DNA of 21,566 nucleotides from a virus. Shown here piece by piece: positions 3,706-21,566 of this stretch. The first letter of the stretch is position 1. Each line of letters opens with the position of its first letter. A program made the position numbers and the translations under genes. The notes under the pieces are model-generated. The model was not told the origin of the DNA. It ran no database searches and was given only the letters and a program-made list of their open reading frames with translations. The stretch is from positions 1 to 21,566 of the IMG/VR virus record IMGVR_UViG_3300046007_000416; one strand, written 5' to 3'.

Positions 3706-4557
3706 ATGGCAATGACATACGCCCAACTCGTGGCTGCGGTACAGGACTACACGCAGAACACGTTTGACACGACTACGATCAATACAATGATTAAGCAGGC
3801 GGAGCAGCGCATCTATAACACGGTGCAGATTGCTAACTTGCGTAAGAATGTCACGGGTGTACTAACTACTGGTAATAAATACTTGCAGTGTCCTCCGGAC
3901 TTCCTGTCGGTATACAGCCTTGCCATATACCCGTACAACTCAACAACTGCTACGGGTACATCTGGGCTTAAAACCATCGTGGTAGCGAGCACAACAGGTA
4001 TTGCTGTGGGTCAGCAGGTAACGGGTTCAAACATTGGAGCTAACGCTTTAGTGCGTAGCATCAGCGGTACAACAATTACTCTGACAGTGGCAAACAGCGG
4101 AACGGTAAATGGTGCTGTAGTCTTTCAGGGTGATTACCTGTACCTCCTAAACAAGGACGTGAACTTCGTTCGTGAGGCGTATCCATTGAGCGCGGTAGCT
4201 TCTGAGCCTAAACACTACGCTATCTTTGGCCCTCGCTCGGACAATGAAACTGAACTTACGTTCATTGTTGGCCCAACACCTAATTCAGGGTACACCGCAG
4301 AACTGCACTATTTCTACATACCTGAGTCTATTGTTACTGCTAATACTTCGTGGTTAGGTGACAATTTTGATTCTGCATTGTTGTACGGCACTCTGTCTGA
4401 GGCTGGAACTTACATGAAGAGCGCACCAGAAGACGGCATGTACAAGCTGTACCAAGAACGGTACGTTCAAGCTATGGCGCTTCTCAAGAATTTGGGTGAT
4501 GGTAAACAACGCGCTGACGCTTATCGTGATGGTCAAATTAGGGTGGCAGTATCGTGA
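3706..4557 (+). CDS. Second adaptor / tail-tubular-like virion protein (283 aa)
   Basis: This protein starts MAMTYAQLVAAVQDYTQNTF and has an N-terminal helical pair (INTMIKQAEQRIYNTVQ, 25-41). Strands follow (GNKYLQCPPDFLSVYSLAIY, 56-75), then SEPKHYAIFGPRSDN (166-180), LTFIVGPTP and a helical C-terminus (FDSALLYGTLSEAGTYMKSA, 221-240). I recognise the family as a structural protein of short-tailed phages, probably an adaptor or tail-tube-like ring component; the exact role is inference. Residues about 82-141 form a separate Gly/Thr/Val-rich beta-insert (GLKTIVVASTTGIAVGQQV...SGTTITLTVANSGTV). A second ATG two codons downstream could be the true start. The stop overlaps the next gene's GTG (GTGA). 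Confidence 0.75.
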   Translation: MAMTYAQLVAAVQDYTQNTFDTTTINTMIKQAEQRIYNTVQIANLRKNVTGVLTTGNKYLQCPPDFLSVYSLAIYPYNSTTATGTSGLKTIVVASTTGIAVGQQVTGSNIGANALVRSISGTTITLTVANSGTVNGAVVFQGDYLYLLNKDVNFVREAYPLSAVASEPKHYAIFGPRSDNETELTFIVGPTPNSGYTAELHYFYIPESIVTANTSWLGDNFDSALLYGTLSEAGTYMKSAPEDGMYKLYQERYVQAMALLKNLGDGKQRADAYRDGQIRVAVS

Positions 4558-5559: not shown

Positions 5560-6567
5560 ATGGCCGGGTGGGGTGACGGCGCATGGGGGGACAGCGGTTG
5601 GGGCGGCTTTGTCGCCTACGACAGCACCATCGACGAAACCTCTACAGGCACAGACGTAGTTGTAGCAAAGTTTGACACATCTGGTTTAGTAGGTGAAACA
5701 GCTACTGGATCGGATGTAATTGCGGCAGGTAAAATATATACCTCAACGATAACGGAAACGTCAACAGGAACAGACGCTTCCGAAGGGGGGCCGTTGTATG
5801 CTACGACGGTAACGGAGACTGCCACAGGTTCAGATGTGGTTTCTTCTGCTATTTCTGTAGGGGCAATAATTACCGAAACTGCTACGGGTACAGATGCAAC
5901 AGTAGGCGGGGAAGTTTATTCGGCAACGATTGCTGGAACGGTTTGGGGGCAAAACAGTTGGGGTAGTAATTCGTGGGGTGGAGAAGGTGAGTTAGCCACC
6001 GCTACTGATGCGGTAGCTTCTACTTTAACGCTTAATCCAACAGTAAGCGAAACGGCAACGGGCACAGATGTTGTAACAGCGGGTATAGCGTTTGTTTCTG
6101 TAATAACAGAAACAGCTACGGGCACAGATTCTGTAACTGCTACACGGGTTTTAAGTCCCGCAGTAAATGAAACAGCAACTGGCACAGATGTTATTTTGGC
6201 TAACGCAGGGTTTGCAAGTGCGGTGGCCGAGACAGCAACCGGAACAGATAACATAGCCGGAAGTCTTGTATATTTTGGTGATGTGCAGGAAACGGCGACA
6301 GGCACAGATGCAGTAACGGCGATAGTTGTAATTAATGCAACAATTACAGAAACTGCTACGGGGTCAGATGTAATTACGGCACAAGTAGGATTTAAAGGCA
6401 CAATTACTGAAAATGCAGTAAGTGTAGAAACTTTGATAGCAGCAGCAGCTTTTGTAGCTTCTATTAGTGAGTTAGCAACAGGTACAGATGGATTGACTGC
6501 ACGCCCATTCTGGGATGTAATTGATGATACACAGACTGCCAACTGGGTTGCAGTCACAACGAACTAG
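5560..6567 (+). CDS. ETATGTD-repeat virion/appendage-type protein (335 aa)
   Basis: This 335-residue protein has an N-terminal aromatic GWGDGAWGDSGWGG element. Fourteen units of exactly 20 residues follow, each beginning E-[TL]-[AS]-T-[GA]-[TS]-D. Five units start at residues 26, 46, 66, 86 and 106. An 18-residue insertion (126-143) repeats the WG element (WGQNSWGSNSWGG). Nine more units start at 144 through 304; the one at 284 has lost the core motif. The region past 310 (PFWDVIDDTQTANW) is non-repetitive. The regular period with alternating Thr/Val suggests a beta-solenoid or fibrous fold, which is inference. A tail-appendage role fits the position before the fibre genes. The start lies one base after the previous stop, with no clear ribosome site, so it is probably coupled. 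Confidence 0.78.
   Translation: MAGWGDGAWGDSGWGGFVAYDSTIDETSTGTDVVVAKFDTSGLVGETATGSDVIAAGKIYTSTITETSTGTDASEGGPLYATTVTETATGSDVVSSAISVGAIITETATGTDATVGGEVYSATIAGTVWGQNSWGSNSWGGEGELATATDAVASTLTLNPTVSETATGTDVVTAGIAFVSVITETATGTDSVTATRVLSPAVNETATGTDVILANAGFASAVAETATGTDNIAGSLVYFGDVQETATGTDAVTAIVVINATITETATGSDVITAQVGFKGTITENAVSVETLIAAAAFVASISELATGTDGLTARPFWDVIDDTQTANWVAVTTN
5635..6489 (+). repeat. Fourteen diverged 60-bp units coding the 20-residue ETATGTD repeat
   Basis: Units of 60 bp run from 5635 to 5934 (five), then a 54-bp insertion at 5935-5988, then nine from 5989 (the last only as its seven-residue core). At the DNA level only the start of each unit is well conserved (for example gaaacngcnacgggcacagat); the rest has drifted while length stays exact, which indicates an old repeat kept by structure. 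Confidence 0.85.
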
Positions 6568-9198: not shown

Positions 9199-9900
9199 AT
9201 GGCCCAGACCGCCGCAAAGAAGTTAAAAGTAAAAGTATGCAAAGCCGCCGAATCGGTAGCTGAAGTGGTCAAGAACACACAGCTTCAAGTTGCATATCAC
9301 TTTCCATGCCCAATCTACATCATTGAGCGCCCTGATTTTTTAGAAGCGGTTAACACTGTCTCTGAAGAAGGTTTGGCAGAATCCCGCAAGACTCAGTCAC
9401 TTAACGAAATCTATCCTTTGTACATGACGGGCAGCTACTTTGGCGACCCACGCATGGTTGGATTTACGGAGTTTGTTGGCGCTACTGCTTGGAACATCCT
9501 TAATGAGCAGGGCTACGCCATGCAGGACAAGGCGGTGCAGTTTACGGAGATGTGGACTCAAGAACATTACAAGCATTCTGCAATGGACGCACACGTTCAT
9601 GGATTTGGTTCACAGATTGTAGGCTTCTACTTCCTTGAGACTCCAGAAGATTGCTCTCGCGTTGTGTTCCATGACCCCCGTGCAGCTAAGGTGCAGATTG
9701 ACCTACCAGAGCAAGACATAAACGCGGCCACACCTGCCAGTAAAGCAATCAACTTTACACCCAAACCCGGCATGATGATCTTTGCTAACTCATGGCTGTC
9801 TCATTCGTTTACCCGCCACGCTGCTGATTTGCCAATCAAGTTTGTACATTTTAATTTGACAGTAGTACCTGCTCCGCAACAAGCCGCTGAAGTAATATGA
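9199..9900 (+). CDS. Putative 2OG-Fe(II) oxygenase (233 aa)
   Basis: This 233-residue protein resembles the phage and bacterial 2-oxoglutarate/Fe(II)-dependent dioxygenase family with a double-stranded beta-helix fold. The metal-binding site is suggested by AHVHGFGSQIVGFYFLETP (H132 and H134). It is followed by VVFHDPRA (155-162) and a distal segment PKPGMMIFANSWLSHSFTRH (189-207) with the second conserved His H202 and a candidate 2OG-binding Arg R206. The usual H-x-D carboxylate ligand is not obvious, so the exact ligands are uncertain. Such enzymes hydroxylate amino acids, nucleobases or small molecules; the substrate here is unknown. A strong AAGGAG site precedes the ATG. Its place after the fibre genes suggests modification of virion or host components, which is inference. 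Confidence 0.72.
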   Translation: MAQTAAKKLKVKVCKAAESVAEVVKNTQLQVAYHFPCPIYIIERPDFLEAVNTVSEEGLAESRKTQSLNEIYPLYMTGSYFGDPRMVGFTEFVGATAWNILNEQGYAMQDKAVQFTEMWTQEHYKHSAMDAHVHGFGSQIVGFYFLETPEDCSRVVFHDPRAAKVQIDLPEQDINAATPASKAINFTPKPGMMIFANSWLSHSFTRHAADLPIKFVHFNLTVVPAPQQAAEVI

Positions 9901-12446: not shown

Positions 12447-14351
12447 ATGCCACTTAAAAAAATACTTTTCCGCCCGGGTGTAAACCGCGAAAACACACGG
12501 TACACCACCGAGGGTGGTTGGTATGAGGGCGATAAGGTTCGTTTCCGTCAGGGCAACCCTGAAGTAATTGGTGGCTGGGTACGTATTTCTACCAATACAT
12601 TTTTAGGTATCTGCCGGTCTTTGTGGAACTGGGTTTTATTGGACGGCAAGAATATTATTGGTCTTGGCACAAACCTCAAGTTTTACCTTGAGAATGGCGG
12701 TGCTTACTATGACATCACACCCATCCGGGCAACCAGCACAATTAACACCAACCCTTTTGTGGCTACAAACGGCTCTGCCGTTATTACCGTTACAGACACA
12801 GCGCATGGCGCTGTTACAGGGGACTTTGTAACCTTCAGTGGCGCGACCAGTCTGGGCGGCAATATTACCGCTACGGTGTTAAACGCTGAGTATCAGATTA
12901 CTGTTCTAACCGCCAATACATACACTTTTGTAGCCACAGCTACAGCTAACGCAACAGATGCTGCGGGTGCGGGTGGTGGCGCTTCTGTGGTTGCAACCTA
13001 TCAAATTAGTGTTGGCCCTGAAGTGCAACAAGTGTTAGAGGGCTGGGGTTCTGGCGGATGGGGTTTAGGTACATGGGGTAATGGCGCTCCCGTAGCAACT
13101 GTCTTTGGTGCTTTACGAATCTGGAGCCAGCAGAACTTTGGCGAGGATTTAGTATTTAACCCTCGCGGCGGTGGTTTGTATTATTGGGACGCTAGTGGTG
13201 GTTTAAACACCAGAGGTGTTTTGGTGTCTAGCCTAATGGGTGCAGATGCTGAAGTGCCTTCGGTTGTTAATTTAGTTGCAGTCTCAGATACATCCAGATT
13301 TGTTTTTTGTTTTGGCTGCGATGATTATGGAAGCTCCGTATTAAATCCAATGTTAATACGCTGGTCAGATCAAGAAAACCTACTTATCTGGAATCCACTT
13401 CCTACCAATCAAGCTGGTAGTGTGACGCTGTCACATGGCTCTGAGATCATTGCTGTGGTGCAGTCAAGGCAGGAGCAGATTGTCTTTACAGACTCTGCGG
13501 TGTATTCATTACAGTATCTCGGCCCGCCAGTTGTTTGGCAAACCCAACTCTTGGGTGATAACACATCCATCTATGGCCCGAACGCAGCCGTCCTTGCTTC
13601 AGGTATTGTGTACTGGATGGGCATAGACAAGTTCTATAAATACGATGGCCGGGTACAGACATTGAACTGCGACCTGCGCAGGTTTATTTTTAACGACATT
13701 AACAAAAATCAAAACTTACAAGTCTTTGCTGGATTAAATGAAGGTTTTAATGAGATTTGGTGGTTTTACTGTTCAAAAAACAGCACAGAAATTGATCGAT
13801 ATGTTATTTATAACTACATCGAGAACGACGGTAAAGGTGTGTGGTACTACGGCACTATGGGCAGGACAGCTTGGCTGGACTCAGGGCTAAGAGACTACCC
13901 ATTGGCAGCGACGTACCAACCAAATAATACAGGTAACCTTGTAGAGCATGAAAACGGTCTGAACGACAACGCAACGGGCACAGAAGCGGCTTTAGACGCT
14001 TACATCTCATCTTCTGAGTTTGACATTGAAGACGGCCATAACTTTGGTTTTGTTTGGAGAATTCTTCCAGACTTGACGTTTGGTGATTCTACAAACAGTC
14101 CAACCGCTGTCACCCCACGAGTTACTATCAGCCTGTTGGGGTTAAGTAATTCAGGCTCTGGCGTAACTGAAACTGCCTCTTCTTTAGTTACTAAAGGCAG
14201 TACCTATGTCATTACGGAAGAATTTACAGGACAGATCTATACCCGAATACGGGGACGGCAGATGATCTTTAAGATTGCTAGTAACCAGATCAATACTCAG
14301 TGGCAACTGGGCGCTCCTAGAATTGACATCAGACCCGACGGGAGGCGGTAA
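12447..14351 (+). CDS. Nozzle / tail-tubular-B-like virion protein (634 aa)
   Basis: This 634-residue all-beta protein begins MPLKKILFRPGVNRENTRYT. It has the EGGWYEGDKVRFRQGNPEVI segment (22-41), and later LRIWSQQNFGEDLVFNPRGG and RWSDQENLLIWNPLP. VYSLQYLGPPVVWQ is followed by blade-like stretches (SIYGPNAAVLASGIVYWMG, DKFYKYDGRVQTL). I recognise the family as a large structural protein of environmental short-tailed phages, probably the nozzle or hub (T7 gp12 / P22 gp10-like role) with a beta-propeller. The exact role is inference. Residues about 103-187 are a separable Gly/Ala/Thr-rich insert (VTDTAHGAVTGDFVTFSGA...). A GWG-x-GG-WG-x-GT-WG element lies at 199-211. Confidence 0.72.
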   Translation: MPLKKILFRPGVNRENTRYTTEGGWYEGDKVRFRQGNPEVIGGWVRISTNTFLGICRSLWNWVLLDGKNIIGLGTNLKFYLENGGAYYDITPIRATSTINTNPFVATNGSAVITVTDTAHGAVTGDFVTFSGATSLGGNITATVLNAEYQITVLTANTYTFVATATANATDAAGAGGGASVVATYQISVGPEVQQVLEGWGSGGWGLGTWGNGAPVATVFGALRIWSQQNFGEDLVFNPRGGGLYYWDASGGLNTRGVLVSSLMGADAEVPSVVNLVAVSDTSRFVFCFGCDDYGSSVLNPMLIRWSDQENLLIWNPLPTNQAGSVTLSHGSEIIAVVQSRQEQIVFTDSAVYSLQYLGPPVVWQTQLLGDNTSIYGPNAAVLASGIVYWMGIDKFYKYDGRVQTLNCDLRRFIFNDINKNQNLQVFAGLNEGFNEIWWFYCSKNSTEIDRYVIYNYIENDGKGVWYYGTMGRTAWLDSGLRDYPLAATYQPNNTGNLVEHENGLNDNATGTEAALDAYISSSEFDIEDGHNFGFVWRILPDLTFGDSTNSPTAVTPRVTISLLGLSNSGSGVTETASSLVTKGSTYVITEEFTGQIYTRIRGRQMIFKIASNQINTQWQLGAPRIDIRPDGRR

Positions 14352-14621
14352 ATGGCACAACTTAATGCTAAAGCGCCAAGCTTACCTTTAGCCGGTAATG
14401 AATACGAGCGTGAGTATTTTGATAAACTTACAAACGTTTTGCGTCTGTACTTTAACCAGTTAGACAACCCCGGGCCTATAGGTGCAACCAGTTTAAACTT
14501 TGATTTAAACAACCTACCCACAGACGCTGATCTGGCTAATTTAAGGCTAGGTGATGTCTATCGAGACACACAAGACGGTGTTCAAGATACCAGCCAGATG
14601 CTTCGTATAAAGACTTCATAA
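14352..14621 (+). CDS. Small phage tail-region protein (89 aa)
   Basis: This 89-residue protein has an N-terminal LPLAGNEYEREYFDKLTNVL helix and RLYFNQLDNPGPIGATSLNF. It ends with LPTDADLANLRLGDVYRDTQ and a short beta tail. The N-terminal helix followed by N-Q-[LI]-[DS]-N-P-G-P is a pattern I recognise from small conserved phage proteins next to nozzle genes. The function is unknown. The ATG directly follows the nozzle stop, with GGAGGCGG just upstream inside that gene, and the giant protein begins two bases after its stop. Confidence 0.72.
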   Translation: MAQLNAKAPSLPLAGNEYEREYFDKLTNVLRLYFNQLDNPGPIGATSLNFDLNNLPTDADLANLRLGDVYRDTQDGVQDTSQMLRIKTS

Positions 14622-14623
14622 TC

Positions 14624-17600
14624 ATGGCATTACCAACAAATTTTTCTAATGCTTATGAAGACGTGTATGACGTTTTTGGTGGGCGGGATGCTACCAATGA
14701 CTTGCTGACAACATTAAGGGGTATGGGTTTAGATGATGCTGCAATTGCGTCTACTTTAGCCCCGTATCGACCAGCCACTACTCCTGCCGCTGTTCAAACT
14801 CCCGCCGCTGTTGAAACTCCCGCCGCTGTAACCACCCCTGCCGCTGTAACCACCCCTGCTGATACAAGCGCCGCCGCTGTTGAAACTCCCACCGCAAAAA
14901 CTACTGACATAGTAGACGACTACATTGCGTCTATTCCTGAGTCTGATATGACGGTTGAGGATTTGTATACAACCATTCTTGGTCGTCCATCAGATGCAGG
15001 TGGTAAGGCATTCTGGGAAAACGCATTTGGGCCTACTGTAGATGAGTCGGAAAAAGCTGACTTCTTGCAAGCCGCCCAATCAGAACTTGCCAACCGGTCT
15101 GTAGAAGAACAAGCGGTACTAGCCCCCAATCTTGTGGCTACTGTAGACACACAAGTACAACCTAACTATAGACAAATGGTGTTGGATCGCTACGCTTCTA
15201 TTGGGCGTACAGGGGTCGGTACTGAAGCATCCAACGTTGATAAAGAAAGTCTTGACGCATGGACTGCGGCTTTGGAAACTGGGCAAATCAAACCAGAGGA
15301 TTTAAACAATACATTTCAAGCCGCTGTTGTTGACTACCTATCAAGCAATCCTGAAGATAAATACAGTACTTATGTCACGGACTATCTAACAGATACCAAA
15401 CCTGCTGCGGTTTCAGGTATTGTTAGTCTGTACGAAGACGTGCTGGGACGTAAACCTGATGCTAAAGGTTTAGCAGACTGGTTTAAAGCGGTTGGTTCTG
15501 AGATTAGCCCAGAAGATCGCGCAATATTTGAAACTGCGGCGCAAGCAGAACTGGATAGCCGAATTCAAGATTTGTACAGCGAATTTATGGGGCCGGGAAG
15601 AATTGCAGAGGAAGAGGGAAAGAAATACTGGAGAGACCGTTTTGGTAACGAGATTGACGCCTCTGAGCGGGAGAAGTTCCGTACTGCCGCCGCCGCAGAG
15701 TTGTCTGGTGCATTTGGCGCGGGTGGTGTTAATTCGTTAGCTGGTTTTAAATACGCCAAAGATCTTGGCATTAGCGATGCTGGTTTAAAAGCAACTCTTG
15801 GTGAAGCTTTATATAACCAGTACAAAGATCAACTTAAAACTACTACAACCACAAGCATTAACGACATTATTGCAGACAACTCCGCAACGTTTGAAGAGTC
15901 GCAAAAAGTTTCCAAATTAGCTCGTGATCTTGGGTATAACTCACAACAACTTGCCGACCTGACGGGTAAAGACAAGTCTCTGTTTGATACTCTTTTAACA
16001 AGCTACGACACCAACCGCAACAAAATCATCAACGATACCCTCACAGGCCCGAACGTTTTAACAGATGCTGACAGGGTAATTGCTAGTTACGCTTTAGAGA
16101 AACAGTTTGGCTTTACTGATGATGACATTGCAAAAGCTACTGGCGTTGATGTTAAGGTTATTCAGAACAGCCTGAACCCCGTCAGAAACTTTGAGACAGA
16201 CTTTTCAAAAATTGCTAACAACACGGACTCAACCACTCAGCAACTTAAAGACTTCGTAATTAGCTCAAAGGCAAATTCAGCCATTGACAAGTTGTATGGC
16301 AGTGCTTTGACTGGATACGAGAACAAGATTGCAGAACTTGAAACAAAGTGGAGTGCGTATGGATCTGACGCTATCCAGTCAGAAAATTTATTTCAGCAAC
16401 TAAACGCTCAGAGGAACGCACTAGGCGGTCAGTATTTCCAAGGTGTGTTTGGCGACTTGGAGAACTCCGCCGCGCTACTTGTCAAAAAAGGTTTAGACAC
16501 TATTGGTGACCTTGGTCAGAAAGACAAGTTTACAACAACATCGGCATTTGAACAATTTTTCATGGCTGATGGTAAACCAGTTATTAAGCAGGGCAATGAA
16601 TACCTTGTGCCAATAACGGACGCGGAAGGCAACCCCACGTCGTATGAAAAAGTTGACCCTTCTAAAGTTACAAAAAAATACTTTAAGCACGTCTTCGAAG
16701 GCAGTGGAGAGAATTCCACCGTCTCAGTTGTGCCGTTGTCTGAGGCGGAGTTGGCAACACTTAAAGATGGAACTTACCAACATAAAATTGGTAGCGTTGT
16801 CATTGACAAAGACACTGGTGCAGAGCTTACTGATATCTCAGGTCAATTAGCTTATCAAAGAAGCGGTGGCCATTTAAAGGGTAGAAAGAATTGGTTGAAT
16901 GTAAAGTTTACAGAAGACGGTACGCCATACCTCACGGCAACTTCAGAAAAAACAGGAATATACGGATTTGTAAGCGAGATGGGGCCAATGGTCATCTCGA
17001 TTGCCGCCATGATCCCGGGGCCGCACCAGCCCTTTGCAATGATGGCAAATGCGGCGTTAGCTATAGAGCAGAAGAACTACCTTGGCGCTGTGCTGAGTGG
17101 CTTAAATGCGGCTGGTTCTTTTGCTGGAACCGAGTTGTCAACGCTGAAAACAGCAGAAGCCGCTGGAGACATTGTCAATACCTCGCGAATTCTTGATTTG
17201 CAAAACACGGTATCAAACGTCAAGCTCGCCCAGACAGCCATTTCTGGGGTTGCCGCTCTTCAATCTGAAAACATTGCTGGTGTTATTAACGCAAGTTTGT
17301 CAGCGTACGGTCAAACTGGTGGAACACTTCCATCAGGCGTCACAACAGCTTTTCAAGCCGCAAACTTAGCACTTGCAATTAAAGATGACAACCTTTCAGC
17401 CGCTTTGGTTTCTCTTGGCGACCTGACTGGCAGTAAAGACCTGTACGTCGCGGCTTCTGCAAAGAACTTGGTTGACGCGCTTAAGAGTGGTAACGAAACA
17501 AATATTATTCAAGCTGGCATAACGTTTGGTAACGCTTTTCAAGCGTCTAATCAATCAACAACGACAACCAATACAAGCGATACTAAAACTAACGTAGTGG

Positions 17601-20600
17601 ATAACACTACGTTGCAGAACACCGACGTTACAAATGTTTTGGCTAACGCTGGATTAACAGACGGCAATGCAACAACCGATGGCGTTCAGTTAGCAAGTGT
17701 TGTTAATAACGTAGTGTCTGATGCTGGGAACGGCGTGACTTTAAGTGGCGTTGACGCAAAAACCCAAGCAGATTTTGACGCCATGAAAGAGGTTGACAAA
17801 ATTGGCGCTGCGGGCACTGCGAGCACTGACGTTGTAACAAATCTTCAAAATGCGGGCTTAACCGAGGACACTGAGTTCGGTGATTTGCAAGGTGCTATTG
17901 ATAAAAACACAGCCGCTGGTACAAAGGCCGCGTCTTTTAAAGACGTTTATGCTGCTAATCGCTTAGCCTTTGGGCCCAATACAACTTTTGAATGGACTAA
18001 CCCTGCGACGGGCGTAACAGGTAAATACACAACCGAGTCGGCCACCGAAGCAGAGAAAAAAGCTGATGCAAAGATTGCTTCAATTAATCAGTCTAACCTA
18101 GCCACAATTACTGATGCGGGTAAAACAGTAGCCGCTCAAAATGACACAGCCGCCCGTAACGCTTCACTTAATGCAACCGCTGCACGAATTGCCGCGCTTA
18201 AAACTTCCAATGCCGACAACGGTGGTAGCTACGTAAATGATGTTCAATACGACGCAAACGGCAATGTGACCGGTGGCAGTATGAATTTGTCTGAGCGCGG
18301 CAAGATTGCCGAGTATGCTGGTGCGTTAGCAGTAGACTCAACATCTCAAATTGCTTCATTTGTTACGGGTACTCTTAAAGCTATTAACGTTTTAGAACGT
18401 GGCGGTACGGTAGATCAAGCTGTTAGTGATTACGCTGCTTTTTCTAAAGCTAAAACGCCAGAAGAAATGAAGGCTGCTAGCTCGGACTTTAATAAAAACA
18501 TGGCCGCTGCTAAAGATGGCTGGGAAGCTTTGGCTGTTGTAGGTAAAACAATTGTTAGTAACCCCGGGTTTGTAGCCTATAACGTAGCGTCTGAAATTCT
18601 TCAAGAAGGCACGCAACTGCTTGCATCTGGGGGCGTGCTTACTGCGGCTAAATTAGTTGGCGCAGCGCCAAGAATTGCTAGGGCTTTAGGTATTTCTACC
18701 GAAGTTGTTTTAGACATGATGGAGTCAGGTGGCGGTGCTGCTGAAGATGCTTACAAACGCGCAAAAGACGCTGGCATGTCGGACAAAGACGCTCAAACTG
18801 CGTCACAAAAGGCGCTAGCTCTTGGTGCAGTAACTACAGGTACACTCAATTTAGTTCCCGGCGGTAACGCACTGACCAAACAAATTTTTGGAGATACCGC
18901 AGGTAAAGTTGGCGCAAAAGAAATAGCCACAACTGCCGCTAAAGTGGGTGTTAAAGAAGGTACTGGAGAAGGCGTAGAAGCTGGCATTATTGAAGGCGGT
19001 ACGCAAAAAATAATCAAACCCGACGATGATTTAAACTGGACTAAGATTGCCGGTACAAGCGCATGGGAAGCAGTTATTGGCGGCAAAACCACGGCGACTA
19101 TTAGCGCCGCCGACTCTACTGTTTCAGCGCTTCAAGACTCTGGGTTGTCCGAGACCCAAGTTAAGTCTGTTGCGGATACTGCGGCAACTACGTTAAAGAA
19201 CAGCACTTCTCCAAGCAATGCGTCTGATACGCTCATTACGCAATTACAAGATGCTGGGCTTACAGAAGATCAGTCCATTACTGCGTCTAATGAAATCATT
19301 GGCGACCAAATTTTAGGTAGCAAAGAGACACTTGATAACTTAGGTGTTACAAAACTTAACGGTGACCAAGTTGTAGCTACAGATTCTGAGGGTAAACCCG
19401 TAACTCTGGCCGAGCTGCTTGGTGAATCGGCAACAGGTAAAACTTCAGGCGAAGTAAAGGTTGATACGTCTGCGGTCATTGGCACAAACGCTAAGGGCGA
19501 GAGCGTAACCGTTGCTGACCTAAACGCTATTACGTCTAACAAAACAACTACGGGTACAACCACTGCGGTTGATACGGCTCAGCAAACTATGGCTGATCTT
19601 GGGCTTAAAGTTTCAGATGAAACGGCAACGTCGTTAGCAACTAAAATTGAAAACGCTACTAAAGCTGACGCTACGGTTGGCGCTAAAGCTGATGTAGTTT
19701 CTGAGCTACAAACTGCGGGGTTAACTGAGACTAAAGCTAACACTGTTGCAGATGTGCTTACAGACACCAAAGCAGATACTAAGGCTGACACCAAAGCAGA
19801 TACTAAGGCTGACACCAAAGCAGATACTAAGGCTGACACCAAAGCAGATACTAAGGCAGATGTAGTTGCAGACATCAAAGCAGATACTAAAGCTGACACT
19901 AAGGCAGATGTAGTTGCAGACACTAAAGCAGATACTAAAGCTGACACTAAGGCAGATGTAGTTGCAGACACTAAAGCAGATACTAAAGCTGACACTAAGG
20001 CAGATGTAGTTGCAGATACTAAAGCTGACACTAAGGCAGATGTAGTTGCAGATACTAAAGCTGAAACCAAAGCTGAGACCAAGACCGAAGCTGAAACCAA
20101 AGCTGAGACCAAGACCGAAGCTGAGACCAAGACCGAAGCTGAAACCAAAGCTGAAACCAAGACCGAAACTAAAGCAGAAGTTGAAACTAAGGACGAAGTT
20201 AAAACAAAAGCAGAGGTTGACGACATCATTGACGACTTAGACGATGACGTAATTGACAAGGTTACTACCCTGATAGATGACCCAATTATTGATAAAATTA
20301 TTGCTGATCCAACTAAGTCACCGCCGCCTAAGCCGCCTAAGAATCCAAAGGTTCCAAGTAAGCAAACGGGTTTAACTTGGCCTCAAGCTACCGCACTTGC
20401 AGGTACTTTTGGCGTACCTCAATTGGCCAACGTGTTCTACTACGGCAAAGAATTTGGGTCTAAGAAACAGAAGGTTGGCAAGAAAGGCCAGTTGGAGCAA
20501 GAAGAATACAAGGCGCTGAGCGTTACCAAAGCCGGTGCTGAAGGTGAAAAGATTGAGGAAGAAGCACTTGCCCAGAAGGGCAAAACCGACGAAAATGACA

Positions 20601-20689
20601 TCGAAGAATTGCTTAAAAAGATTGAAGGGTCAAGCGACAACGCTGCGACTCCTGAAGAAATTGCAGAAATCATAAGGCAAGGAGCTTAA
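14624..20689 (+). CDS. Giant multi-repeat, probably internal/ejected virion protein (2021 aa)
   Basis: Domains in order by residue: the FGG...MGLD module (18-52); four P-A-A-V-x-T linker repeats (54-77); four DUF4214-like units (about 108-158, a degenerate one at 183-241, 265-314, 315-361; core L-Y-x-x-x-L-G-R-x-x-D-A-x-G, then W). Three HTH-like helical units follow (about 375-404, 428-461, 487-518). A mixed segment spans 640-770 and a Gly/Ala-rich hydrophobic stretch 775-970. Another at 1230-1465 includes GFVAYNVASEILQEGTQLLA, GISTEVVLDMMESGGGAAED and EGVEAGIIEGGTQKI, which resembles internal ejection proteins of large phages. The ADTK/AETK repeats (1714-1860) and a basic C-terminus end it. 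Length and hydrophobic patches suggest a protein ejected with DNA, which is inference. The gene takes up 28% of the window. Confidence 0.7.
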   Translation: MALPTNFSNAYEDVYDVFGGRDATNDLLTTLRGMGLDDAAIASTLAPYRPATTPAAVQTPAAVETPAAVTTPAAVTTPADTSAAAVETPTAKTTDIVDDYIASIPESDMTVEDLYTTILGRPSDAGGKAFWENAFGPTVDESEKADFLQAAQSELANRSVEEQAVLAPNLVATVDTQVQPNYRQMVLDRYASIGRTGVGTEASNVDKESLDAWTAALETGQIKPEDLNNTFQAAVVDYLSSNPEDKYSTYVTDYLTDTKPAAVSGIVSLYEDVLGRKPDAKGLADWFKAVGSEISPEDRAIFETAAQAELDSRIQDLYSEFMGPGRIAEEEGKKYWRDRFGNEIDASEREKFRTAAAAELSGAFGAGGVNSLAGFKYAKDLGISDAGLKATLGEALYNQYKDQLKTTTTTSINDIIADNSATFEESQKVSKLARDLGYNSQQLADLTGKDKSLFDTLLTSYDTNRNKIINDTLTGPNVLTDADRVIASYALEKQFGFTDDDIAKATGVDVKVIQNSLNPVRNFETDFSKIANNTDSTTQQLKDFVISSKANSAIDKLYGSALTGYENKIAELETKWSAYGSDAIQSENLFQQLNAQRNALGGQYFQGVFGDLENSAALLVKKGLDTIGDLGQKDKFTTTSAFEQFFMADGKPVIKQGNEYLVPITDAEGNPTSYEKVDPSKVTKKYFKHVFEGSGENSTVSVVPLSEAELATLKDGTYQHKIGSVVIDKDTGAELTDISGQLAYQRSGGHLKGRKNWLNVKFTEDGTPYLTATSEKTGIYGFVSEMGPMVISIAAMIPGPHQPFAMMANAALAIEQKNYLGAVLSGLNAAGSFAGTELSTLKTAEAAGDIVNTSRILDLQNTVSNVKLAQTAISGVAALQSENIAGVINASLSAYGQTGGTLPSGVTTAFQAANLALAIKDDNLSAALVSLGDLTGSKDLYVAASAKNLVDALKSGNETNIIQAGITFGNAFQASNQSTTTTNTSDTKTNVVDNTTLQNTDVTNVLANAGLTDGNATTDGVQLASVVNNVVSDAGNGVTLSGVDAKTQADFDAMKEVDKIGAAGTASTDVVTNLQNAGLTEDTEFGDLQGAIDKNTAAGTKAASFKDVYAANRLAFGPNTTFEWTNPATGVTGKYTTESATEAEKKADAKIASINQSNLATITDAGKTVAAQNDTAARNASLNATAARIAALKTSNADNGGSYVNDVQYDANGNVTGGSMNLSERGKIAEYAGALAVDSTSQIASFVTGTLKAINVLERGGTVDQAVSDYAAFSKAKTPEEMKAASSDFNKNMAAAKDGWEALAVVGKTIVSNPGFVAYNVASEILQEGTQLLASGGVLTAAKLVGAAPRIARALGISTEVVLDMMESGGGAAEDAYKRAKDAGMSDKDAQTASQKALALGAVTTGTLNLVPGGNALTKQIFGDTAGKVGAKEIATTAAKVGVKEGTGEGVEAGIIEGGTQKIIKPDDDLNWTKIAGTSAWEAVIGGKTTATISAADSTVSALQDSGLSETQVKSVADTAATTLKNSTSPSNASDTLITQLQDAGLTEDQSITASNEIIGDQILGSKETLDNLGVTKLNGDQVVATDSEGKPVTLAELLGESATGKTSGEVKVDTSAVIGTNAKGESVTVADLNAITSNKTTTGTTTAVDTAQQTMADLGLKVSDETATSLATKIENATKADATVGAKADVVSELQTAGLTETKANTVADVLTDTKADTKADTKADTKADTKADTKADTKADTKADVVADIKADTKADTKADVVADTKADTKADTKADVVADTKADTKADTKADVVADTKADTKADVVADTKAETKAETKTEAETKAETKTEAETKTEAETKAETKTETKAEVETKDEVKTKAEVDDIIDDLDDDVIDKVTTLIDDPIIDKIIADPTKSPPPKPPKNPKVPSKQTGLTWPQATALAGTFGVPQLANVFYYGKEFGSKKQKVGKKGQLEQEEYKALSVTKAGAEGEKIEEEALAQKGKTDENDIEELLKKIEGSSDNAATPEEIAEIIRQGA
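14783..14854 (+). repeat. Four 18-bp units coding P-A-A-V-x-T linker
   Basis: Four in-frame 18-bp units at 14783, 14801, 14819 and 14837 encode PAAVQT, PAAVET, PAAVTT and PAAVTT. A single degenerate echo (AAAVETPT) follows shortly after. The last two units are identical at the DNA level except for their first codon (ccc/cct), which suggests recent duplication of a flexible Pro/Ala linker between the N-terminal module and the DUF4214-like region. Confidence 0.85.
19763..19858 (+). repeat. Four tandem 24-bp units coding DTKADTKA
   Basis: Units start at 19763, 19787, 19811 and 19835. Each encodes two ADTK tetrapeptides that use different synonymous codons (gac-acc-aaa against gat-act-aag), so the 24-mer rather than the 12-mer was duplicated. 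The four units are identical except for the last base of the final one. This indicates recent tandem amplification in frame. Confidence 0.9.
19856..20059 (+). repeat. 48-bp tandem units coding ADVVADTKADTKADTK
   Basis: Three 48-bp units start at 19856, 19904 and 19952 and encode 16 residues each; they differ at only one position. A 36-bp shortened unit at 20000 has lost one ADTK. A further start at 20036 runs into the next repeat type. The first unit shares three bases with the preceding 24-bp array. The pattern fits unequal exchange or slippage that kept the reading frame. Confidence 0.9.
20060..20167 (+). repeat. 30/18-bp units coding AETKAETKTE
   Basis: Units of 30 bp start at 20060, 20090 and 20138, with an 18-bp shortened one at 20120. 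They encode A-E-T-K-A-E-T-K-T-E. Acidic Asp of the earlier arrays is replaced by Glu, and codon usage shifts from act to acc. The tract then decays into K-A-E-V-E-T-K-D-E-V-K-type sequence up to about 20220. Confidence 0.88.
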
Positions 20690-20690
20690 T

Positions 20691-21566
20691 ATGGATGATG
20701 AAAATCAACAAGTTGACTGGAGCGTAGACGACAGCGGGTATGCCACTGCTGGGGCAGAGCTTAATGACTACATGACCTCCCAAGGTTATGAGGATGTTCA
20801 GCCATGGCAAAATGTATCTACTACAGGTGACACCACCTCCGGTAATATGTATGGCAACAGCAGTCTATTTAGCGGCTCAGACCTTGCTAAACTGTTTAAA
20901 GATTCGCCCTTGCTCCAAACTTTGGGCGCTGTTGGTATGGGCAAGTTGGCAGACAAACTTTTTGATGTACAAAAAGGCCCCGGTGGTTACAGAGGTGGTA
21001 TCCCCACTTTAACTGCGTATCGCCAACAGTACGCAGTGCCAACTACTGGAGTGCCAAGTACATACAAACCATCAGATACTGAGATCCGTGACTACGCCCT
21101 GCGCCCCGGTATTAACGATGCAATGGTAGCTAGGGGTATGAATCAATTTGGAGTCAGCCCAGAGCGTATGGCTGGCATTATGCAGTTGCCTGTTGACCAA
21201 GTTCAATCTCGCTACCAAGCAGCTATGGGGCCAAACATGGTAGCTCGCCGACCCGGTTCTGGCGGTGTTACGTACTTCAGCCCAATGCAGTATCTCAAAG
21301 CCGGTCAAACACCTGCGGGTACAACTCCTGCGGCTCCAGTAACTCCACCTGCTGAATCTGTTGCTGCGCCTGTGGAGTCTACAGGTTTGGCAGCGGGTGG
21401 TATTGCTAACTTGGGTGGCTACTCAGATGGTGGTCGACTACTTAAAGGCCCCGGTGATGGCGTGTCTGATAGCATCCCAGCTATGATTGGTAAACGCCAA
21501 CCTGCTCGGTTAGCCGACGGCGAATTTGTAATCCCAGCACGTATTGTCTCTGAATTAGGCAATGGC
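20691..21566 (+). CDS. Phage structural protein with GPGDGVSDSIPA C-terminal motif (partial, 292+ aa)
   Basis: The frame runs 292 codons from ATG 20691 to the window end without a stop, so the 3' end is missing. AAGGAG (20678-20683) lies seven bases before the ATG, inside the giant gene. The N-terminus is acidic (MDDENQQVDWSVDDSG). An HTH-like NQFGVSPERMAGIMQLPVDQ lies at 151-170 and a Pro/Ala linker at about 208-228. GGYSDGGRLLKGPGDGVSDS leads into IPAMIGKRQPARLADGEFVI and PARIVSELGNG. The G-P-G-x-G-[VT]-S-D-S-I-P-A...L-x-x-G-E-F-V-[IV] motif is one I recognise from the C-termini of many phage virion and tail proteins. The function is unknown; as neighbour of the giant protein it may be another ejected or internal component. 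Confidence 0.75.
   Translation, partial: MDDENQQVDWSVDDSGYATAGAELNDYMTSQGYEDVQPWQNVSTTGDTTSGNMYGNSSLFSGSDLAKLFKDSPLLQTLGAVGMGKLADKLFDVQKGPGGYRGGIPTLTAYRQQYAVPTTGVPSTYKPSDTEIRDYALRPGINDAMVARGMNQFGVSPERMAGIMQLPVDQVQSRYQAAMGPNMVARRPGSGGVTYFSPMQYLKAGQTPAGTTPAAPVTPPAESVAAPVESTGLAAGGIANLGGYSDGGRLLKGPGDGVSDSIPAMIGKRQPARLADGEFVIPARIVSELGNG

Follow-up and report, generated by a model that had tools for sequence, protein, structure and literature searches.

What is the task of a gene that fills more than a quarter of a virus record and belongs to no named protein family? We addressed this question for the IMG/VR virus record IMGVR_UViG_3300046007_000416, a 21.6-kb record analyzed here over its full length of 21,566 nucleotides (the window). 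The gene at 14624-20689 (+ strand) is one unbroken open reading frame (ORF) encoding 2021 amino acids (aa). It covers 28.1% of the window, in agreement with a sequence-only reading of the same DNA, which had described a single mosaic gene taking up 28%. The source is an uncultured short-tailed phage with podoviral tail machinery (nozzle, SU10 adaptor). Our analyses make it likely that the product is an ejected protein with a swappable front end acting on the cell envelope. It is probably also the first and most variable component of an ejection cassette of the SU10/P22 type.

Intact copies of the protein were found in four other contigs at 99-100% identity and in a fifth at 90%. The 90% copy (locus L005) lies within a 63-kb contig, G002, which encodes terminase, portal, capsid, polymerase, and helicase. 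We gathered the family using the last 86 residues of the protein, which retrieved 80 IMG/VR loci. After removal of two weak matches and near-duplicates, the family comprised 56 non-redundant members, 42 of them complete (647-2037 aa). We searched named phages with the whole protein, its C-terminus, and the ends of other members (tblastn), as well as with family profiles, and obtained no match. With no PHROG for the window protein and no match in named phage records, the family is previously unnamed.

Gene order and cysteine content of the candidate cassette

The sequence-only reading had raised the possibility that the protein is ejected. This is well supported by the position of the gene, its SU10-type neighbors, and an absolute exclusion of cysteine. 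The genes concerned are as follows.

14624..20689, + strand: gene of the 2021-aa protein, cysteine-free, first large gene of the candidate ejection cassette (ORF list, composition)
12447..14351, + strand: 634-aa protein homologous to the C-terminal half of gp17, the nozzle protein of SU10 (phrog_3287, 2.9e-60)
14352..14621, + strand: 89-aa cysteine-free protein, placed by its position in the putative needle/plug slot
20691..21566, + strand: next gene of the cassette, cut by the window end; 330 aa in the relative L003, cysteine-free, with a helix-turn-helix (HTH)-like unit
3706..4557, + strand: SU10-type head-tail adaptor (PF24175, SU10_adaptor)

The same phrog_3287 also covers the C-terminal half of SU10 gp17, and a phage lysozyme gene (Pfam, PHROG) lies upstream of the 2021-aa gene. 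In relatives, the downstream genes encode proteins of about 330, 311, 513, and 1946 aa. Of these, the 311-aa protein has a match to phrog_4287. This PHROG also contains the SU10 ejection proteins gp21 and gp22, which are found in virions and are absent from the genome-release intermediate (PMC9509320). This order is kept across the family: 43 representatives have the nozzle homologue upstream, and 52, 49, and 42 have the 330-, 311-, and 513-aa genes, respectively, downstream, most of the missing cases being short of DNA there.

The family contains no cysteine in 65,846 aa, and the next three genes contain none in 17,332, 15,060, and 23,045 aa. The giant protein that ends the cassette has 8 cysteines in 56,669 aa. 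As controls, the nozzle proteins have 218 in 26,840 aa and the genes upstream of the nozzle 178 in 14,934 aa (0.8-1.2%). Within the G002 cassette region, six ORFs have no cysteine in 5255 aa, against about 32 expected at the cysteine rate of the other structural-side proteins (P 1.6e-14). Reference ejection proteins behave in the same way, with 6 cysteines in 16,233 aa when pooled: none in SU10 gp20-24 (2956 aa), P22 gp7/20/16 (1309 aa), SP6 gp35-37 (2487 aa), or the N4 virion RNA polymerase gp50 (3500 aa; L122:8524-19026), one each in T7 gp14-16 (2261 aa) and Sf6 gp11-13 (1326 aa), and four in epsilon15 gp15-17 (2394 aa). The ejected status of the T7, SP6, Sf6, N4, and epsilon15 proteins follows general knowledge and record annotation. 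That of the SU10 and P22 proteins has been documented (PMC9509320 and PMC8402733, respectively). Cysteine exclusion over such a length and so many members is a strong sign of ejection. The signature was measured in this analysis and is not a published criterion; a narrow phrase search found no such rule, and a review of ejection proteins (PMC8954989) does not mention cysteine, although it may be published elsewhere.

We considered whether the protein could instead be an external tail part (a giant needle, tip, or fibre) that does not enter the cell and uses its DUF4214 units as adhesin-like receptor binders. The gene does lie close behind the nozzle gene, at the place of the needle gene in P22 and SU10, and needles may be cysteine-free. 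In addition, the N-terminal domains differ strongly between relatives, as in receptor-binding proteins, and DUF4214 typically occurs in surface and secreted proteins of bacteria. However, the needle slot is already occupied by the 89-aa gene and, in relatives, by genes of 113-223 aa. The phrog_4287 ejection gene lies only two genes downstream and is equally cysteine-free, as are its immediate neighbors, whereas an fn3/Gly-rich window protein of external or fibre-like type has 7 cysteines in 365 aa. The 2021-aa protein also shows no trimerisation or beta-helix signature. We therefore regard an external role as unlikely.

Some observations weigh against ejection. No part of the 2021-aa protein matches the PHROGs, and homology to proven ejection proteins is therefore reached through neighborhood and composition; comparison with SU10 gp20-24 likewise gave no sequence match. 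The phrog_4287 match of the 311-aa protein is modest (3.4e-4). Because tail needles and some scaffolds are also cysteine-free (P22 gp26 and gp8, SU10 gp18), absence of cysteine alone is no proof, and fibres can be cysteine-poor. Finally, no clear transmembrane helix was predicted in the protein, and the AlphaFold2 model of the core (aa 1060-1640) was too poor for use, with a predicted local distance difference test (pLDDT) score of 47.5.

The exchangeable N-terminal region

The N-terminal part of the protein holds the modules below.

14645..14779, + strand: N-terminal tag, aa 8-52, SNAYEDVYDVFGG...MGLDDAAIAS, common to ORF 809-1915 and preceding a hydrolase domain in the relative L084
14945..15097, + strand: DUF4214 unit 1, aa 108-158 (Pfam, shuffle test, family model)
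15161..15388, + strand: NYRQMV unit, aa 180-255, not detectably related to the DUF4214 units
15410..15562, + strand: DUF4214 unit 2, aa 263-313, above the Pfam cut-off
15554..15712, + strand: DUF4214 unit 3, aa 311-363, without a Pfam match of its own, related to the other two DUF4214 units
15734..16198, + strand: three weakly similar helical units, aa 371-525, the HTH-like units of the sequence-only reading (AlphaFold2 model, shuffle test)

The tag had been proposed from the sequence and was found again in ORF 809-1915 (40% identity, E 4e-5; shuffle z 12.5). This ORF lies far upstream and encodes a Pro-rich 368-aa protein with the same N-terminal tag of about 40 residues.

Domain searches did recover DUF4214 (PF13946), both in the whole protein (E 6e-9; 36.3 bits against a gathering cut-off of 23.2) and in the N-terminal 450 aa of a near-identical relative (E 1.6e-11). 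Four such units had been claimed. When searched singly against Pfam, aa 263-313 scored 26.0 bits, above the cut-off, and aa 108-158 scored 17.8, below it; aa 311-363 and aa 180-255 gave no DUF4214 match of their own. The first three of these segments are mutually related (shuffle z 11-18), whereas aa 180-255 has no detectable kinship with them (shuffle z <= 2.3; profile comparison probability 0.7%). The protein thus carries three DUF4214 units and one different unit, named NYRQMV, and the idea that the latter is a divergent DUF4214 is unsupported. A comparison of the DUF4214 module with bacterial genomes matched patterns and found no relative, and the protein has no RTX repeats.

The three HTH-like units fared less well. 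AlphaFold2 models them as helical (pLDDT mostly 70-88), but they resemble one another weakly (shuffle z -0.7 to 3.4) and have no significant Pfam HTH match, the best being HTH_ParB at E 0.13. The model of aa 101-560 as a whole gave usable secondary structure (pLDDT 73.6) and no significant fold match in the PDB.

Module models were run over 61 sequences. The family-specific DUF4214 model matched 9 of them, the model of the NYRQMV unit 13, and that of an HTH-like SD unit 22; at E<=0.01, Pfam DUF4214 was found in 3/44 N-termini, two of them just under the cut-off. In L084, the tag of the window protein (YESIYDVFGGKDATND...) is followed by a GDSL/SGNH hydrolase domain in place of the DUF4214 block (PF13472, 52.4 bits against a cut-off of 32.9). 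One further family member matches RTX calcium-binding repeats. MSCRAMM matches in L008 were rejected as low-complexity. Comparison of these sequences indicates that DUF4214 is an optional N-terminal module, one of several in the family. Because the same region can also hold an SGNH hydrolase, the mosaic is a swappable N-terminal region and not one fixed architecture, and DUF4214 is dispensable for any channel formation. The 330-aa neighbor carries an HTH-like unit that is also found in family members (z 8.5; 59 bits), so modules also move between adjacent genes.

Could this variability reflect decay or random shuffling without function, with only the core and C-terminus mattering? Most members lack DUF4214, and conservation over the N-terminal 450 aa is very low in the family, with a mean column identity of 13%. 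However, modules are conserved where they are present (84-88 bits for DUF4214 and 116-141 bits for NYRQMV in the window protein), and the L084 hydrolase (L084:4828-6177), besides scoring above its Pfam cut-off, keeps the GDS and GND motifs and the late histidine. We consider a functionless N-terminus very improbable.

Core, repeat linker, C-terminus, and neighboring genes

Beyond its variable front, the protein has the four parts below.

16949..17536, + strand: Gly/Ala-rich helical domain conserved in the family, aa 776-971, in 44/49 long members
17828..19522, + strand: 565-aa region, aa 1069-1633, 84-98% conserved in the close relatives aligned; its profile matches 15/61 sequences
19748..20220, + strand: tandem-repeat linker of TKAD, VVADTKAD, and TEAE units (Tandem Repeats Finder); near-identical genomes differ mainly in its copy number
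20429..20686, + strand: conserved C-terminal domain, aa 1936-2021, NVFYYGKEFGSKKQK...IIRQGA, the family signature

Two claims of the sequence-only reading stood unchanged here: its Gly/Ala-rich hydrophobic stretches correspond to the conserved domain at aa 776-971, and its tandem charged tail is a true TKAD/TEAE tandem array. The PDB and PHROGs returned nothing useful for the Gly/Ala-rich domain. All 42 complete members have a low-complexity stretch that runs into the C-terminal domain, with linkers of varying type (TKAD, AxAKA, TPTQP, VTPEVTP, and, in the incomplete relative L038, PEVK). Two sets of near-identical genomes differ by repeat-number changes of 8, 16, and 14 aa and by one substitution at aa 1751, with repeat assembly error a possible source of such changes. 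Matches of the tail to ribosomal protein L29 and other PDB entries were discarded as low-complexity, and the Pfam matches to COMM_HN and DUF3243 at aa 1497-1554 as fortuitous matches to a short LQxAGLTE motif that is repeated there.

Gly/Ala-rich helices and length-variable repeats would also fit a ruler. In this reading, the protein would be internal, of a tape-measure or scaffold-like type, and would not enter the cell. Scaffolds are often cysteine-free, and the syntenic protein of phage DSL-LC04 is annotated as a tail tape measure protein. However, podoviral tail machinery with a nozzle and SU10 adaptor needs no ruler, and a ruler could not tolerate length differences of 8-16 aa among near-identical phages. 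A scaffolding gene would be expected near the capsid gene, as in the P22, SU10, and T7 gene orders, and the DSL-LC04 protein seems to owe its label to annotation transfer. This alternative is very unlikely.

Several neighboring genes have features of their own. The gene that follows (20691-21566) encodes a protein with a GPGDGVSDSIPAM...ADGEFVIPA end motif, also present in proteins of MinM2, Caulobacter phage RW, and DSL-LC04; the annotation of several of them reads tape measure or calcium-binding protein. The terminal giant (1946 aa; G002:C1:38416-44256, L005:17473-21949, P0002) has a PLxRFG C-terminal domain (NF032893, 1e-32) and a metallopeptidase-like VLHELLHA motif. Close relatives vary in the N-terminus of this protein. 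We claim no homology between the giant and the core of the 2021-aa protein: a z of about 5 in one pair was not repeated with three other giants and was unseen in profile comparison.

Elsewhere in the window, a 335-aa protein of TETATGTDVV-type repeats (5560-6567), possibly a fibre or decoration protein, is encoded downstream of the SU10-type adaptor. The structural region also includes a 2OG-Fe(II) oxygenase gene (9199-9900), as in DSL-LC04 and HTVC023P. Upstream of the lysis genes, the window and L005/G002 have mostly unrelated fibre-region genes despite near-identical ejection cassettes. This suggests that the host-recognition block is exchanged.

A proposed delivery model and comparison with known systems

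We interpret the family as probable ejected proteins with an exchangeable front end. The protein would be packaged in the head, leave through the portal and nozzle ahead of the DNA, and help to open a path through the cell envelope. The N-terminus would act as an effector or contact region, made of DUF4214 and NYRQMV units here, a GDSL/SGNH hydrolase in L084, and HTH-like helical units in many others, and may supply host- or envelope-specific action. The sequence-only reading had proposed that the DUF4214 units contact the envelope or line a channel; contact with the envelope is possible. The Gly/Ala-rich helical domain is the shared core, the fast-changing tandem-repeat linker would be an extended, flexible tether, and the C-terminal 86 residues probably dock onto another part of the cassette or tail. 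Stray disulfides would presumably harm threaded proteins that refold in the oxidising periplasm, which could account for the exclusion of cysteine. A broader proposal is that the family is a delivery chassis (conserved core, fast-changing repeat tether, conserved docking end) that brings swappable envelope-acting domains to the periplasm and that zero cysteine is a general rule for ejected phage proteins; we put it forward tentatively, as conceivable but somewhat less than probable.

Ejection proteins are known to diverge fast, and T7-like phages show mosaic swapping of functional domains among them (PMC8954989). This divergence makes them hard to recognize, and giant genes without a name abound in the genomes of uncultured phages. 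An unnamed family now has an anatomy and a likely job. Together with gene order, cysteine exclusion can mark ejected proteins when sequence search fails, and it covers the 3500-residue N4 virion RNA polymerase as well as the present family. If the N-terminal region does deliver varied envelope-acting domains, this would suggest how short-tailed phages adapt their entry machinery to hosts.

By terminase and nozzle protein, the nearest named phages are DSL-LC04, 023Pt_psg01, the pelagiphages HTVC027P and HTVC023P, MinM2, and the roseophages CRP-901 and CRP-902. Their layout is similar, with unrelated proteins in the slot of the 2021-aa protein. The 760-aa DSL-LC04 protein and its HTVC023P and HTVC027P equivalents are cysteine-free and likewise lie after a phrog_3287-type gene and before an ejection-type gene. 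At its C-terminus, however, the DSL-LC04 protein bears a closer resemblance to the gene that follows in the window (GPGxxxSDSIPAM...DGEF motif), and family profiles found neither the family C-terminus nor the core in these three genomes.

The window protein shares with bacterial surface and RTX-type DUF4214 proteins its three related units, one of them above the Pfam cut-off, but it lacks the RTX repeats, and DUF4214 is one optional module in its family. The P22/Sf6 set gp7-gp20-gp16 consists of three proteins of 229-665 aa without a repeat linker and without visible sequence kinship to ours. Like our cassette, it follows the head-closure (nozzle-position) and needle genes and is cysteine-free except for one residue in Sf6 gp11. 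In SU10 (Kuravirus), the first ejection slot holds a 260-aa transglycosylase, gp20, with no detectable kinship to the 2021-aa multi-module protein; by analogy, it may be an enzyme for the same barrier. Otherwise, SU10 gp20-gp24 resemble the window cassette: the gene order after the nozzle gene is comparable, PHROGs are shared with gp17 and gp21/gp22, and all five proteins are cysteine-free, the last one being a giant.

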